Of a DNA stretch of 32,526 nt, positions 11,787 to 16,466 are shown one piece after another. Position numbers and translations under genes: made by a program. The notes under the pieces are model-generated. The model did not search any database. It was not told the origin of the DNA and saw only the letters and a program-made list of their open reading frames with translations. How positions within the stretch are numbered: position 1 is the first letter of the stretch; the number at the start of each line of letters is the position of its first letter. This DNA comes from Colwellia sp. (GTDB lineage: Bacteria > Pseudomonadota > Gammaproteobacteria > Enterobacterales > Alteromonadaceae): contig JABSOZ010000006.1 of the NCBI GenBank assembly GCA_013215295.1, positions 288,605 through 321,130 on the forward strand. The letters are read 5' to 3'.

Positions 11787-12091
11787 AGTCTTTTCTCTTT
11801 ACATCAATACTAAAAATACAATAAATGCACAGCTTAGTATTTTATTATTTTCATGTGTATGTCTAACTCTCTGGTTAGACTCCTAGATGGTTAACCCTCT
11901 GACAATTTATCAGTGTTAAACAGACAATACCAATAGAAAATGAGCTAAAAACGATATAATTATAAGTTTTATCGGTGTGAAAGTTTTCATCAGATTTTCA
12001 GGGCCTTTTAATGGGTTTATTTTATACGTCTATTGAAAGCTCAACATTCATCCGCATATAATAGATATTCTCTAAATAATATTATTTCATC
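11787..12091. other. intergenic region between divergent aroG and the vemP-like gene
   Basis: This 305-nt gap has promoters in both directions. The plus-strand one is at 12033-12062. For aroG a TATAAT is seen on the minus strand at 11959-11964 without a good -35. Two small hairpins lie in the aroG leader: GTCTAAC/GTTAGAC at 11861-11880 and a bulged GTTAAC/GTTAAAC around CTGA/TCAG at about 11890-11921. Neither has a T run, so attenuation is not supported. No TyrR box with both half sites was found. Confidence 0.5.
12033..12062 (+). promoter_or_regulatory. strong sigma-70 promoter of the vemP-like-secDF operon
   Basis: TTGAAA (12033-12038) and a consensus TATAAT (12057-12062) are separated by 18 nt, with the ATG of the small secreted protein 30 nt further on. 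No promoter of comparable quality was found between that gene and secD, so the three genes probably share this transcript. Confidence 0.75.
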
Positions 12092-12529
12092 ATGTGGCGT
12101 AATTTCTCGATTTTTCTTTGTTTAATTACATTAGCGCAAACAGCTAATGCTTTGCCGATGGAAAATTTCGACCAAAACGCGTCAACATCCCCTTTAACAC
12201 TACAGCTTAAAATAGCAAACGTTGAAACATCCTTGAGTAATATTTTATTACTCGATGAGAGCGAACCAGAAGACACCTTCAATTTACCTCGCTTGTATCA
12301 AGCTTCTGCGTCTGTATTTTCTAATGAATTACAGAACACACCCAATTACTTTCTTGTTATAGAGTTTTTTAAAATAAAACTTAACGCTGGTTTATTCAAA
12401 AACCTTGCTAACCCTCCTGTTCAATTAAATTGGTATGAACAATTAAGTCATCGTTCTAACTCTACCCGTCTTTCTGGCTGGAAAGACGGCAACACCTTAT
12501 ACGCATCTCGCGTGAATTATCATTCCTAG
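12092..12529 (+). CDS. vemP: VemP-like secreted protein, candidate export-sensing arrest peptide
   Basis: A 145-residue protein directly upstream of a second-type secDF pair. The signal peptide is residues 1-20 (MWRNFSIFLCLITLAQTANA), with a likely cut after A20. The mature part is short and has no enzyme motif. The C-terminus carries RLSGWKDGNTLY (126-137), very like the arrest region of V. alginolyticus VemP, which I remember as R-I-S-G-W-K followed by a similar N-x-M-Y stretch; VemP has 159 residues and also precedes secDF2. Known role: VemP stalls its ribosome when export is slow, unfolding the mRNA and exposing secD2. By analogy this protein would monitor Sec export. The symbol is by analogy. 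The match is from memory and stalling is unproven. Confidence 0.7.
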   Translation: MWRNFSIFLCLITLAQTANALPMENFDQNASTSPLTLQLKIANVETSLSNILLLDESEPEDTFNLPRLYQASASVFSNELQNTPNYFLVIEFFKIKLNAGLFKNLANPPVQLNWYEQLSHRSNSTRLSGWKDGNTLYASRVNYHS

Positions 12530-12530
12530 A

Positions 12531-12663
12531 TTCATCATCTAACCATTACTTAATAATCGTTTTTCCTTTTCCAATGTTACTATTTGATAGTAACGCTTGC
12601 TGTACTCGTTTTACTGGTTTCAAAAAACAATTACCGCAATAATTTTCGAGATTTTATGATGAA
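12531..12663 (+). promoter_or_regulatory. candidate stall-responsive mRNA structure masking the secD start
   Basis: Three nested pairings lie between the vemP-like stop codon and secD. Outer: TTCATCAT (12531-12538) with ATGATGAA (12656-12663), which contains the secD start codon. Middle: TAATCGTTTTT (12554-12564) with AAAAACAATTA (12623-12633), one mismatch. Inner: GTTACTA (12576-12582) with TAGTAAC (12588-12594). A ribosome stalled on the last codons of the upstream gene would cover the 5' arm of the outer stem and free the secD start. The pairings are seen in sequence; folding and function are inferred, and the region is AT-rich. Confidence 0.55.
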
Positions 12664-14512
12664 CTCACCGACAAAAATGCCCTATAGATATTTTAAATGG
12701 CAAAATATATTAATTTTTGCCACCTTACTTTTTTTATTAATCAGTGCCCTACCAAACTTATATGACGATAAAGTAAAGTTTCACCTTTCGCCCATAAATG
12801 CAAGCGTGCAAAAAATCACCACAATAGAACTAAAAAACTTATTCGATAAGTACAATTTATCTATTGATGAAATTTCAACAACCCGTGATAAAGCATCCAT
12901 TACACTGAGTAATAAAATTGACAAAGTCACGGTTAACAACTTGTTGTCTGATGAATATAAAGATAACTTCCGCATCGAAAGCGTCGTTATAAATAATATG
13001 CCTTCTTGGCTAGTATCACTTGACGCAAAACCAATTAAGCTAGGTTTAGATTTAAGTGGTGGGGTATTGTTTGTACTTGAAGTTGATACAAAACAAGCCT
13101 TATTCGATCGTTTAAAAAACATCGCGTTAGAGATAAAAACCATTGCAATGGAAGACCGTATCCGAGGTGTTACTGTCGTCCAAAACAATGGAAATAAGCA
13201 AATTGATGAAACTAACCAAAACCTGTTGGTTAAATTTCCTCATTCAGCAAAAAATGAAATTGATACGCTTTTTAATAAAATAAAAGAAAACTATCCTGAC
13301 TTAACCCAGCAAAAAGATAAGAATAACCAAGTGACTTTGTCATTTCCTTCTCAGAAAACGTCTCAATTTCGTCAAGAAACCATGAAACAAACATTAAAAA
13401 CCATGCGTGGAAGGATAGAAGAACTGGGCATTACAGAAGCAGTTACATTACAGCAAGGGAAAAATCATATTCGTATTGAGCTACCTGGTGTTAATGATCC
13501 CGAAGAAGCGAGACGGATAATAGGTGCCACGGCGACCCTTGATTTTTATCAACTTGCTGAAAATTCAAAAGCTGCGGGCGTCTTACGTATGATTGATGAA
13601 AATGGTCGAAAGCTCAATTTAAACAGCAAAGTTGTCTTTTCTGGCAGCAATATTAAGCATGCTCGTGCAGGACAAGATCAAATGAGTATGCCTTTAGTTA
13701 ATCTAACGCTAGATGCTGTTGGCGGTAAAAAAATGTCTCAATTTTCTAAACAGAATGTAGGCAACACTATGGTGACTGTATTTTCTGAGTTTTACCGAAA
13801 TGCTCAGGACAAAATGGTCAAGAAGAGTAAAGTGATCAATGTCGCCACAATACAACAACACTTAGGTTCACAATTTAGTATCACTAATATGTCAAGCCAG
13901 CAAGCCGCACAAGAACTGTCTTTATTATTACGAGCTGGTTCGCTAACGGCCCCCGTAACCATAGTAAAACAACGCACTATTGAAGCAACACTTGGTATTG
14001 ATAATATCAATAATGGTATTAAAGCATTAAGTGTCGGCATTGGTATTACCTTGTTATTTATGATTTTTTGGTATCGTACTTTAGGCGTAATAGCGAACGT
14101 AGCATTAACATTAAACTTAATTAGCTTACTCGGCTTAATGTCCTTGTTGCCAGGTGCAGTGCTCACGCTCCCTGGTATCGCAGGTTTAGTGTTAACCGTT
14201 GGTATGGCTGTCGATACTAACGTGCTTATTTTCGAGCGGATTAAAGAAGAATTAAAGCGCGGTCATAAAGTACTGCAGGCCATTGAACAAGGTTATAAAA
14301 GTGCTTTTTCAACCATCCTTGATGCAAACATTACGACAATGATCACTGGAATTATTTTGTACACCATAGGTAATGGGCCCGTTAAAGGTTTTGCGCTTAT
14401 TTTGTGCTTAGGTATTTTAACCAGCATGTTTACTGGCGTTTTTGTTTCAAAAGCTTTAACAAATATGGTCATTCGTAAAAATAAAACACCATTATTAGGA
14501 GTTAACGCATGA
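12656..14512 (+). CDS. secD2: protein translocase subunit SecD, second-type paralogue (SecD2)
   Basis: SecD and SecF use the ion gradient to pull exported proteins out of SecYEG on the periplasmic side. About 618 residues from the ATG pair at 12656/12659, near a weak GAG Shine-Dalgarno at 12648-12650. A TTG at 12584 would add 24 residues but lies in a hairpin loop. N-terminal membrane segment (KWQNILIFATLLFLLISALP), LGLDLSGG motif, the large P1 periplasmic domain and a five-helix C-terminal block follow, with the conserved D520 in GMAVDTNVLIFERIKEE, which belongs to the ion pathway. yajC, tgt and queA, usual neighbours of the primary secDF, are absent, supporting a second copy as in Vibrio. 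secF overlaps by 4 nt. Confidence 0.9.
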   Translation: MMNSPTKMPYRYFKWQNILIFATLLFLLISALPNLYDDKVKFHLSPINASVQKITTIELKNLFDKYNLSIDEISTTRDKASITLSNKIDKVTVNNLLSDEYKDNFRIESVVINNMPSWLVSLDAKPIKLGLDLSGGVLFVLEVDTKQALFDRLKNIALEIKTIAMEDRIRGVTVVQNNGNKQIDETNQNLLVKFPHSAKNEIDTLFNKIKENYPDLTQQKDKNNQVTLSFPSQKTSQFRQETMKQTLKTMRGRIEELGITEAVTLQQGKNHIRIELPGVNDPEEARRIIGATATLDFYQLAENSKAAGVLRMIDENGRKLNLNSKVVFSGSNIKHARAGQDQMSMPLVNLTLDAVGGKKMSQFSKQNVGNTMVTVFSEFYRNAQDKMVKKSKVINVATIQQHLGSQFSITNMSSQQAAQELSLLLRAGSLTAPVTIVKQRTIEATLGIDNINNGIKALSVGIGITLLFMIFWYRTLGVIANVALTLNLISLLGLMSLLPGAVLTLPGIAGLVLTVGMAVDTNVLIFERIKEELKRGHKVLQAIEQGYKSAFSTILDANITTMITGIILYTIGNGPVKGFALILCLGILTSMFTGVFVSKALTNMVIRKNKTPLLGVNA

Positions 14513-15429
14513 ACAACATGAAGCTTAATAAGTACTTTAATTTAAGTCACTTTCGAATAGTCAGTTTTTATTGTGCGGTAATATTTGTTGCCATTGCACT
14601 TTCTGGTCTCTTTAGCAAAAACTTAGCGCTTGGTTTAGATTTTACTGGTGGTTACCTTACTGAATTTTCAACCGAAAAATCGGTAAGCCAAAAACAAATG
14701 AATGCATTACTCACTTCATATCTACCTGAGGATTTTAAGCTAACATCTGCCGATGAAGGGACACATTGGAGCGTCCAACAAGCGGATAATAAGTCCAATT
14801 TAAAAGGTAAAGAGTGGCTCGCTAACTTTGCTTTACACAGTGAATTAACTATTACTCCACAAGATGCAATTTACATAGGAAGCCAAGTAGGTGAGGAGCT
14901 GATAAACCAAGGTGGTTTAGCGCTGTTAACAGCAATCATTGTTATATTAATGTATTTGTCATTGAGGTTTGAATGGCGTTTTGCGGCCGGTGCTGTTATT
15001 GCGCTTTTTCATGATGTGCTGGTTGTACTTGGACTTTTTGCATGGTTCGGTATTACTTTTGATTTAACTATTTTGGCAAGTTTACTGGCTATCATAGGTT
15101 ATTCACTTAACGACTCAATTATTGTTGCTGATAAAATTAGAGAAATAATGAAAACAAACAGTGAAGCTAAAATAGATAACATTATCAATCAAGCAATTAA
15201 ATCTACTTTGGGAAGAACGATGATCACATCTGGAACGACATTAGCAACCATTATTGCTATTTGGGTCTTTGCTGGAGAATCGTTAGCCGGTTTTTCTATC
15301 GCCTTGTTCACAGGAGTATTGGTTGGCACCTTCTCTTCCATTGCTATTTCAGCAACAGTTCCTCAGTTACTTGGGTTGACTGCTGATTATTATCAACAAA
15401 AAGAGGAAGATATTTGTCTGTTGCCTTAA
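14509..15429 (+). CDS. secF2: protein translocase subunit SecF, second-type paralogue (SecF2)
   Basis: Partner of SecD in the inner membrane. The 306-residue protein has an N-terminal membrane segment (about 14-35), the LGLDFTGGYLTEFS motif, a short periplasmic P4 domain and five C-terminal helices, including GYSLNDSIIVADKIREI, which holds conserved aspartate and arginine residues of the family. It is slightly shorter than E. coli SecF (323). Its ATG overlaps the secD stop in ATGA, so translation is coupled and both subunits should respond to the same upstream control. Whether it runs on protons or sodium cannot be read from the sequence; in V. alginolyticus the SecDF2 copy uses protons. Confidence 0.92.
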   Translation: MNNMKLNKYFNLSHFRIVSFYCAVIFVAIALSGLFSKNLALGLDFTGGYLTEFSTEKSVSQKQMNALLTSYLPEDFKLTSADEGTHWSVQQADNKSNLKGKEWLANFALHSELTITPQDAIYIGSQVGEELINQGGLALLTAIIVILMYLSLRFEWRFAAGAVIALFHDVLVVLGLFAWFGITFDLTILASLLAIIGYSLNDSIIVADKIREIMKTNSEAKIDNIINQAIKSTLGRTMITSGTTLATIIAIWVFAGESLAGFSIALFTGVLVGTFSSIAISATVPQLLGLTADYYQQKEEDICLLP

Positions 15430-15503: not shown

Positions 15504-16466
15504 CTACTTTATTTGATAAAACTGCTTAAACATAACATCAAGTTCGGCTAAGGTTTCTAGCGATAATTCTTCTAATAACCATGTTGAAACATCAGATTTT
15601 TGAACAAACTTTCTCGTTAAGCGTTTAAAAATTTCAGCACCTAATTTTTCACTTAAAAAATGATGAAATAAGGCTACTTGCTGATAAAATCGAACAGGAA
15701 GTTGGCCATCATCATCCACCTCAATAGCGGCAACAAAGGAACCATTGTTATTGTTTTTACTTTGTAGCTGCATCATTTTCTTTATTTTTTCTTTAATCAT
15801 TGTAAAAGCAGGGTTCTCCATGATAAAAAATTTATCAAAAGGAATAAAATCCTGTATAGCACTTGTTAGCCTCATGTCGTTTAGTGCTTGGTTTTCACAT
15901 ATAACCGCAGCCATTTCATCATACCAGTCAGGTAGCAAGCCATGGCCATAAGACATTTCACCATTACTTTTGTAGTTCAACCCTTTTTCTTCAACCTGAT
16001 TTATCAGTAGCATATGACAAGCTTCATGAGCAATGACATTATATTTATCCGCTTTGTTAGCCTCCATTCCCTGGTTATTTACCAGTCCCTGATAACTCAG
16101 AAAAGGTAAAAGCCGATCAGATAACTCACTTTTATCTAACTGAAACAAACCCATTTGACTATTCATTAAAGCAACATCAAGCTTAGTCGATGGACCAAAT
16201 TTATCATCGAAAATATCTATCGCCGTTAATAACTCCGATTTTTCTCTTAATAAATCAGTATTTTTCTCACCAAAAAGTCGTAATTTATTGTTTTCAAAAT
16301 AAAGTATCGGTCGGACTTTTTTCCCCTGACTTAATTTCTGTATTAGTTTTTCCTTTACCAGCGTTATTTCATCACTTAGTGCAAAAGCATTGCAGGTAGA
16401 AAATAATAACACCCCTGATATAAAGCATTGTTGACTGAAGCGAACAGAACTCTTAAAATTTATCAT
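15504..16466 (-). CDS. secreted HExxH zinc metallopeptidase (gluzincin-like), function unknown
   Basis: A 320-residue exported protein. The signal peptide covers about residues 1-29 (hydrophobic stretch CFISGVLLFSTCNAFA with a probable cut after AFA). The zinc-binding motif H147-E-A-C-H151 is followed 33 residues later by E184 in PDWYDEMAAVICEN, the usual third ligand placement of gluzincins. No other domain was recognised and the substrate is unknown; such proteins may act on periplasmic or outer-membrane targets. It is transcribed divergently from the LytS/LytTR-type pair that starts at 16677, with 210 nt between, which makes it a candidate target of that system (inference only). Confidence 0.75.
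   Translation of the reverse strand: MINFKSSVRFSQQCFISGVLLFSTCNAFALSDEITLVKEKLIQKLSQGKKVRPILYFENNKLRLFGEKNTDLLREKSELLTAIDIFDDKFGPSTKLDVALMNSQMGLFQLDKSELSDRLLPFLSYQGLVNNQGMEANKADKYNVIAHEACHMLLINQVEEKGLNYKSNGEMSYGHGLLPDWYDEMAAVICENQALNDMRLTSAIQDFIPFDKFFIMENPAFTMIKEKIKKMMQLQSKNNNNGSFVAAIEVDDDGQLPVRFYQQVALFHHFLSEKLGAEIFKRLTRKFVQKSDVSTWLLEELSLETLAELDVMFKQFYQIK

Follow-up and report, generated by a model that had tools for sequence, protein, structure and literature searches.

The window analysed here, a 32,526-nucleotide stretch of a Colwellia sp. genome, carries a small open reading frame immediately upstream of secD and secF. The locus raises the question of whether this gene encodes a relative of VemP, the arrest peptide that precedes secDF2 in Vibrio alginolyticus, and whether it could control the adjoining genes in the same way. 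The ORF (12092-12529, forward strand, as are the other features of the operon) runs from an ATG to a TAG and encodes 145 amino acids ending in ...RSNSTRLSGWKDGNTLYASRVNYHS before the stop. An initial annotation had assigned to this protein the C-terminal stretch RLSGWKDGNTLY, which indeed occupies residues 126-137 (12467-12502), and its placement before secD and secF also holds. A gap of 126 nucleotides leads to secD2 (12656-14512), whose likely start is the ATG at 12656 rather than the TTG at 12584 of the ORF list. The start is preceded by a weak Shine-Dalgarno-like GAG (12648-12650), recognized from the sequence and from relatives, many of which carry AGAGA. The gene for SecF2 follows (14509-15429; TIGR00966, E 8.5e-76), and its start overlaps the end of secD2 by four bases. 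By eye, the N-terminus of the 145-residue protein, MWRNFSIFLCLITLAQTANA/LP (residues 1-20, ANA/LP; 12092-12151), resembles a Sec signal peptide, and relatives look alike. The protein has no match in Pfam or NCBIfam at E up to 1.

This SecDF set is one of two in the genome; the canonical one is on another contig (C12), where a yajC-like end lies upstream of secD by comparison with E. coli K-12. SecD2 scores above the cut-off of the NCBIfam SecD model NF009545 (732 bits versus 728), and the canonical SecD of the same genome scores below it (670 bits). The gene was also said to lie under a strong promoter. A sigma-70-like element, TTGAAA-18-TATAAT (12033-12062), matches 11 of 12 consensus bases, but promoter-like sites are not more numerous than in shuffled sequence (4 versus 4.7 expected), so the proposal comes down to this single 11/12 match. 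Directly after secF on the opposite strand (15504-16466) is a gene for a 320-residue, secreted-looking protein that carries the sequence HEACH and has no match in Pfam or NCBIfam; it is a possible peptidase.

The initial annotation spoke of a VemP homologue or analogue and suggested a profile alignment to VemP as a check. The profile built from 50 secDF2-linked relatives of the window protein (A5), compared with 177,635 distinct PDB sequences, gave a single match at E up to 10, which is the VemP nascent chain of 5nwy at a modest E of 0.019. An earlier 51-row profile (A1) matched the same chain at E 0.021, with the alignment falling on HRISGWKETNAMYVAL, and the window sequence alone gave no match in the PDB. 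When A5 was compared with a profile of 13 secDF2-linked peptides of the Vibrio/Shewanella type (A4; Vibrio, Shewanella and relatives), hhalign returned a probability of 99.2 and an E-value, that of one pairwise comparison, of 3.6e-19 over 75 columns. Direct alignment to V. alginolyticus VemP covers the C-terminus only, where the core RLSGWKDGNTLY aligns to HRISGWKETNAMY of 5nwy. Together with a common SecD2 clade described below, the A5-A4 match and the sole PDB hit bear out the homologue side of the earlier wording. Judged by these comparisons, the 145-residue protein is a VemP homologue, and by synteny and the SecD tree it is most likely an orthologue.

The two proteins resemble each other in being encoded before secD2-secF2, the second SecDF of the genome, in their signal-peptide-like start, and in an R..GWK..N..Y core with equal spacing that is located near the stop. 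They are also similar in length, with V. alginolyticus VemP having 159 residues. Unlike VemP, the Colwellia sp. protein has only six (R, G, W, K, N, Y) of the 15 specified residues of the V. alginolyticus motif. The full motif HRIxGWKETNAMYVxLNxx is unmatched, and the V, L and N nearest the peptidyl-transferase centre are missing. This motif describes the V. alginolyticus sequence; the criterion published for the family is a shorter core, RxxxWKxxNxxY, which is present near the stop (R126, W130, K131, N134, Y137). The missing residues, V151, L153 and N154, are reported to belong to the V. alginolyticus arrest motif (PMC7897499), and the L153A change is reported to weaken the VemP stall (PMC5449182). 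Their places are taken by Ala, Arg and Val, and the tip of the peptide reads ASRVNY(HS) in Colwellia sp. versus VALNSQ in VemP.

The same RxxxWKxxNxxY consensus upstream of secDF is described for 339 VemP-like uORFs by Fujiwara et al. 2024 (PMC10987492), a set that may already include Colwellia members. That study also describes uDF_RQH_Enterobacterales of Alteromonas naphthalenivorans, which likewise lies upstream of secDF2 and comes from the same broad GTDB order. This peptide has an RGPP arrest motif, whereas no RAPP/RGPP-like motif, as found in RQH arrest peptides, occurs in the 145-residue sequence. SecM, MifM and ApdA/ApdP have a monitoring-substrate logic in common with the vemP homologue, but their motifs are unrelated, and SecM and MifM act on target genes other than secDF2.

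The initial annotation suggested that only the signal peptide and the C-terminus might be conserved among homologues. The C-terminus is indeed the most constrained part and the linker (residues 22-62) is variable, but residues 63-112 (12278-12427; F76, Q81, P84, E91, F92) are conserved as well in alignments A1 and A5 and by dN/dS. Among 26 close relatives, the mean majority fraction is 0.34 in the linker, 0.66-0.73 in residues 63-125 and 0.86 in residues 126-145. Over 60 pairs above 60% identity, dN/dS is 0.36 in the signal region (residues 2-21), 0.55 in the linker, 0.12 in both 63-83 and 113-125, and lowest, at 0.08, in the last 20 codons (126-145); for residues 84-112 the value is a pN/pS of 0.17, with pS saturated. 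Four residues are invariant in A5 (F76, Q81, W114, W130), and P66, P84, E91, F92, L97, R126, G129, K131, D132, N134, Y137, T142, Y143 and S145 are each kept in at least 90% of its rows.

The middle part of Vibrio VemP holds Sec-interacting elements (a hydrophilic-x-Pro, a short hydrophobic segment and Arg85), and residues 63-112 may be its functional equivalent. A PDB search for Q65xP67, L78ALF and Arg85 with a Vibrio-type single sequence, whose last seven residues were missing, gave no match. The search with the Vibrio/Shewanella-type profile, like that with A1, aligned the VemP C-terminus only, so the elements were not mapped.

In 101 of 120 distinct secDF2-linked loci the stop lies 16 codons from the core Trp. 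Other distances are 15 codons (five loci), 20 (four), 17 (three), 18 (three), 13 (two, one of which, L057, is mis-framed), and 21 and 25 (one each). The spacing is thus not kept in some lineages; the four loci with 20 codons belong to family f2, and the one with 25 is L075. In 100 aligned secDF2-linked loci, collected with a pattern that demanded R/K, W, K/Q and Y/H and left N, G and the tip free, position W+13 is Tyr in 77, W+14 is His in 61 and Leu in 25, and the last residue is Ser in 82. Neither L153 nor N154 of the Vibrio tip is retained in secDF2-linked loci. One member of this set, L117 from Thalassotalea sp. 42_200_T64, has a stop in place of the Tyr codon predicted for the P site (RTT*HS), which is a sequencing error or a natural loss.

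In the reported VemP-ribosome structure, W143 stacks on R92 of uL22, K144 contacts U747, R139 stacks on A752 and Y150 stacks on C2610 (PMC5449182). The counterparts of these four residues in Colwellia sp. are W130, K131, R126 and Y137. By these alignments, the core predicted to hold the tunnel wall hardly varies, and it is the tip at the peptidyl-transferase centre that differs between lineages. VemP is reported to stall with Q156, at W+13, in the P site (PMC5449182). From the W143-Q156 spacing, the stall site in Colwellia sp. is predicted to have Tyr143 (12518-12520) in the P site and His144 as the A-site residue. Two codons would follow the stall residue here, versus three in VemP if that protein has 159 residues.

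Relatives of the protein are widespread. Searches with the single protein gave matches in 55 of the 246 genomes sampled from the GTDB family, spread over 20 of 52 genera. The best place in each of the 55, along with one second copy, was inspected, and in 51 genomes secD lies downstream. Of the remaining four, two (G101 and G081) belong to a class before S41 peptidase genes that is described below and two (G241 and G151) are weak matches. Profile A1, which held one S41-linked sequence (L061) and was used for the family and order profile searches, matched 64 of the 246 genomes (the 51 above, 12 genomes from the S41 class and a weak match, G120) and 87 of 394 genomes in the order sample, from 20 of 115 genera. 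Among the best 80 of 82 confirmed loci, obtained from 146 pattern matches and not all located before secD, are representatives from Colwellia, Cognaticolwellia, Litorilituus, Thalassotalea, Thalassomonas, Pseudocolwellia, Pseudoalteromonas, Paraglaciecola, Aliiglaciecola, Psychromonas, Shewanella, Vibrio, Kangiellaceae relatives and others. The family is thus wider than the Alteromonadales, the group to which the initial annotation had extended it. Phage and plasmid records gave no match at E up to 0.01.

Several genomes depart from the common arrangement. A second copy in G197 (L063, G197:C1:1137000-1140500) consists of a vemP broken across more than one frame and, after it, a secF-like fragment; it has no secD match and is the remnant of a second vemP-secDF2 operon. 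Some genomes of the family, such as G014, G017, G024, G033, G050, G064 and G192, have two SecD genes and no VemP match with profile A1; other arrest peptides may be present at these loci. In G192, a diverged or decayed uORF without the Trp (L231) lies before a secD.

We consider it highly probable that the vemP homologue, most likely an orthologue, stalls its own ribosome, senses export and switches on secD2-secF2. Stalling, co-translational export and control of secDF2 are inferred from the sequence, and the proposal is modelled on the mechanism reported for Vibrio VemP and secDF2 (PMC5449182, PMC11470409, PMC7897499). The Colwellia peptide would be exported co-translationally, and when export lags, reflecting SecDF1 activity, its nascent chain would fold in the ribosome tunnel. 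The folded chain would stall the ribosome at approximately codon 143, with Tyr143 occupying the P site, His144 the A site and two codons left to the stop. A ribosome stalled there would hold the vemP tail and the intergenic RNA open, allowing secD2-secF2 to be translated, and a working Sec machine would pull on the nascent chain and end the stall.

The step from stall to expression is the part of this proposal for which another route deserves the most weight. In Vibrio, the start and ribosome binding site of secD2 are reported to be masked by a stem-loop that the stalled ribosome opens (PMC5449182). In the minimum free energy fold of 12500-12690, nucleotides 12503-12523 of the vemP tail, which lie inside the stretch assumed to be covered by a ribosome stalled at codon 143, are predicted to pair with the secD start at 12656-12680, but the overall fold is unremarkable (z -1.22). 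At the Colwellia sp. locus the tail-secD pairing (10.39) beats that obtained with shuffled downstream sequence and equals that obtained with shuffled tails (10.43, p 0.56), and a ribosome on the tail does not make the start more accessible (0.62 to 0.60). Because the tail control is unbeaten there, we do not claim masking for this locus.

Across the wider family, we examined 70 loci that remained after similarity thinning of 94 loci whose gap was below 240 nucleotides, using 25 shuffles each. The mean number of tail-start pairs is 8.6 versus 2.8 with the downstream sequence shuffled (above the shuffle mean in 70 of 70) and versus 7.1 with the tail shuffled (above the mean in only 40 of 70, p 0.0085). 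With the covered tail removed, the start becomes more accessible (0.38 to 0.55), and this is so in 55 of the 70. On this modelling, RNA masking of the secD start appears plausible for the VemP family. It is possible, but we think rather unlikely, that the homologue stalls and secD2 is instead controlled through transcript stability, coupling or attenuation. Such a route would fit the Colwellia sp. pairing, which is no better than its composition control, and the small excess over shuffled tails in the Colwellia-type subset (8.1 versus 7.1, one-sided p 0.035, n 26). The accessibility gain across the 70 loci argues for masking, as does the precedent of the published Vibrio mechanism.

Descent from a common ancestor is also favoured by the linked SecD proteins. 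In a tree of 28 SecD sequences, vemP-linked SecDs form one clade apart from canonical SecDs with support of 100/100. This clade, to which the SecD2 of the window belongs, comprises 13 peptide-linked SecDs and one further SecD of G253, and the 14 canonical sequences include that of E. coli; six of 34 candidates were left out because they were wrong ORFs (L127, L130, L163, L172) or had no ORF (L280, L291). A SecD above the NF009545 cut-off occurs in 41 of the 246 genomes, all among the 51 with vemP before secD, and each of these 51 has two SecDs except G029 (81% complete), which has one. Given the shared clade and the NF009545 pattern, the vemP-secDF2 operon looks old and common to several families. 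An unrelated uORF could instead have acquired a VemP-like stalling motif by convergence, as the likeness is strongest in the last 20 residues and arrest peptides are reported to arise repeatedly (PMC10987492). We set this very improbable reading aside because the profile-profile match, 75 columns long, takes in some of the middle region, and because the SecD tree gives one clade at an identical genomic place. That the gene encodes an ordinary small secreted protein which lies before secDF by chance and does not stall is scarcely credible, since, even though the stall is deduced from sequence and several V. alginolyticus motif residues are missing, the Trp-stop distance is nearly fixed, the tunnel-contact residues are near-invariant and synteny is constant over many genera.

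The searches also uncovered VemP-like peptides that do not precede secD. In G101, which is from the GTDB genus of the Colwellia sp., the sole VemP-like gene found encodes RLSGWKESNLLY, has 16 codons to the stop and precedes an S41 peptidase gene. This arrangement, in which a VemP-homologous uORF lies directly before an S41 peptidase gene, occurs in 21 of the 246 family genomes, and outside the family in L193, L197 and L250 (other families) and in L176 (Shewanella sp. DT_112). The full set of loci is L189:4445-5971 (G101), L178-L188, L193, L197, L210, L211, L220, L221, L224, L228-L230, L232, L250 and L176. All five proteins tested were confirmed as S41 by Pfam.

A profile of 14 S41-linked rows (A6), none in common with A5, aligns with A5 over 71 columns (probability 98.9, E 2e-17) and keeps the four invariant residues F, Q, W and W in register. 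Another S41-linked profile (A2) retrieves the Colwellia sp. protein at 6.9e-8 and matches 74 of the 246 genomes, which are the 21 of the S41 class, the 51 with vemP before secD, G192, and G053, where no S41 gene was found. None of the 21 S41-class genomes is among the 51 VemP-secDF2 genomes. A single SecD is present in 20 of them and none in G076 (84% complete), and no second SecD was found. In 23 of 24 real S41-linked loci, a count that leaves out G030 (Trp lost) and a spurious row (L305), the stop lies 14-18 codons from the Trp; in L183 the distance is 23 codons. The arrest motif has decayed in several of these peptides. Their last 28 codons have the lowest pN/pS (0.46 versus 0.62 in the middle), a weak result from six chosen sequences. 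When the S41 protein was sought in six vemP-secDF2 genomes, four gave matches at 27-35% identity and two gave none.

A second class is found in the enterobacterial family of Serratia sp. Ag1, where 16 of 217 genomes and 12 of 154 genera carry a related peptide. In all 15 loci examined yqjA is downstream, and exuR was also matched in 13 of the 15. Loci with this arrangement, mostly with exuR upstream, are L177:3276-4919, L095, L194-L196 and L233-L247. The profile of yqjA-linked peptides (A3) matches A5 with probability 96.6 and E 5.9e-10, 10 of 15 distinct loci have a Trp-to-stop distance of 16 codons, and pN/pS is lowest in the last 28 codons (0.26 versus 0.58 in the middle; nine chosen sequences). 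We also considered YqiM of E. coli K-12, an annotated 27-residue small protein encoded between exuR and yqjA (L274:5169-5252) that ends in PAWR before the stop. Its translated sequence has no VemP-like motif, and so E. coli K-12 lends the yqjA case no support.

The gene next to yqjA encodes MzrA, which is similar to the N-terminal domain of SecD and matches Pfam SecD-TM1 (E 1.2e-18) and also NF009545 (E 1.2e-6, far below the cut-off). Against a profile made from the N-terminal part of 13 SecD2s, three MzrA proteins scored 40.7-46.9 bits, compared with 24.7-40.3 bits for that of 14 canonical SecDs, and each of the three was higher with the vemP-linked SecD2. These scores lean toward SecD2 but do not have the strength of proof. 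This suggests that the yqjA-mzrA arrangement might be the remains of an ancestral, decayed vemP-secDF2 operon.

Further targets are represented by few loci. In Vibrio inusitatus and Vibrio comitans a VemP-like peptide, SRISGWKDGNTLYSQRLPLSA, precedes a gene for a ChaA-like cation/proton antiporter (L168:3231-5118 and L170:3462-5293; the L168 protein was checked against Pfam and NCBIfam). In a single case, a Pseudohongiella MAG (L149:3366-6255), such a peptide precedes a gene for a MacB/FtsX-like ABC permease. From sequence, we infer that the S41- and yqjA-linked peptides would also stall and regulate. On balance we lean toward a view in which export-sensing arrest peptides form an old family, with VemP as one of its branches, and have been rewired to an exported S41 peptidase, to the DedA protein YqjA with MzrA, and possibly to a ChaA-like antiporter and an ABC permease.

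Literature searches on VemP in Colwellia, Shewanella or Pseudoalteromonas, and on an arrest peptide with yqjA or yqiM with yqjA, found no relevant paper, and a search for arrest peptides on S41- or yqjA-type targets found none by title and the start of the abstract. The screen of PMC10987492, as described there, took only genes upstream of yidC, secA and secDF, and thus the S41- and yqjA-linked peptides were beyond its reach. The Colwellia sp. VemP would represent a known type with a variant tip, and the rewired S41 and yqjA classes are the newer part.

A 2024 paper calls the vemP-secDF2 operon specifically conserved among Vibrio species (PMC11470409). The relatives described here indicate instead that it looks like an old operon of several marine gammaproteobacterial families. 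Its near-fixed core and lineage-varying tip offer a natural series for testing VemP-type stalling. Within the literature searched, the S41- and yqjA-linked homologues would be the first Sec-monitoring arrest peptides to control targets other than secretion. If this is true, Sec-sensed stalls would control envelope proteolysis and ion or lipid-carrier transport, beyond the Sec machine itself.
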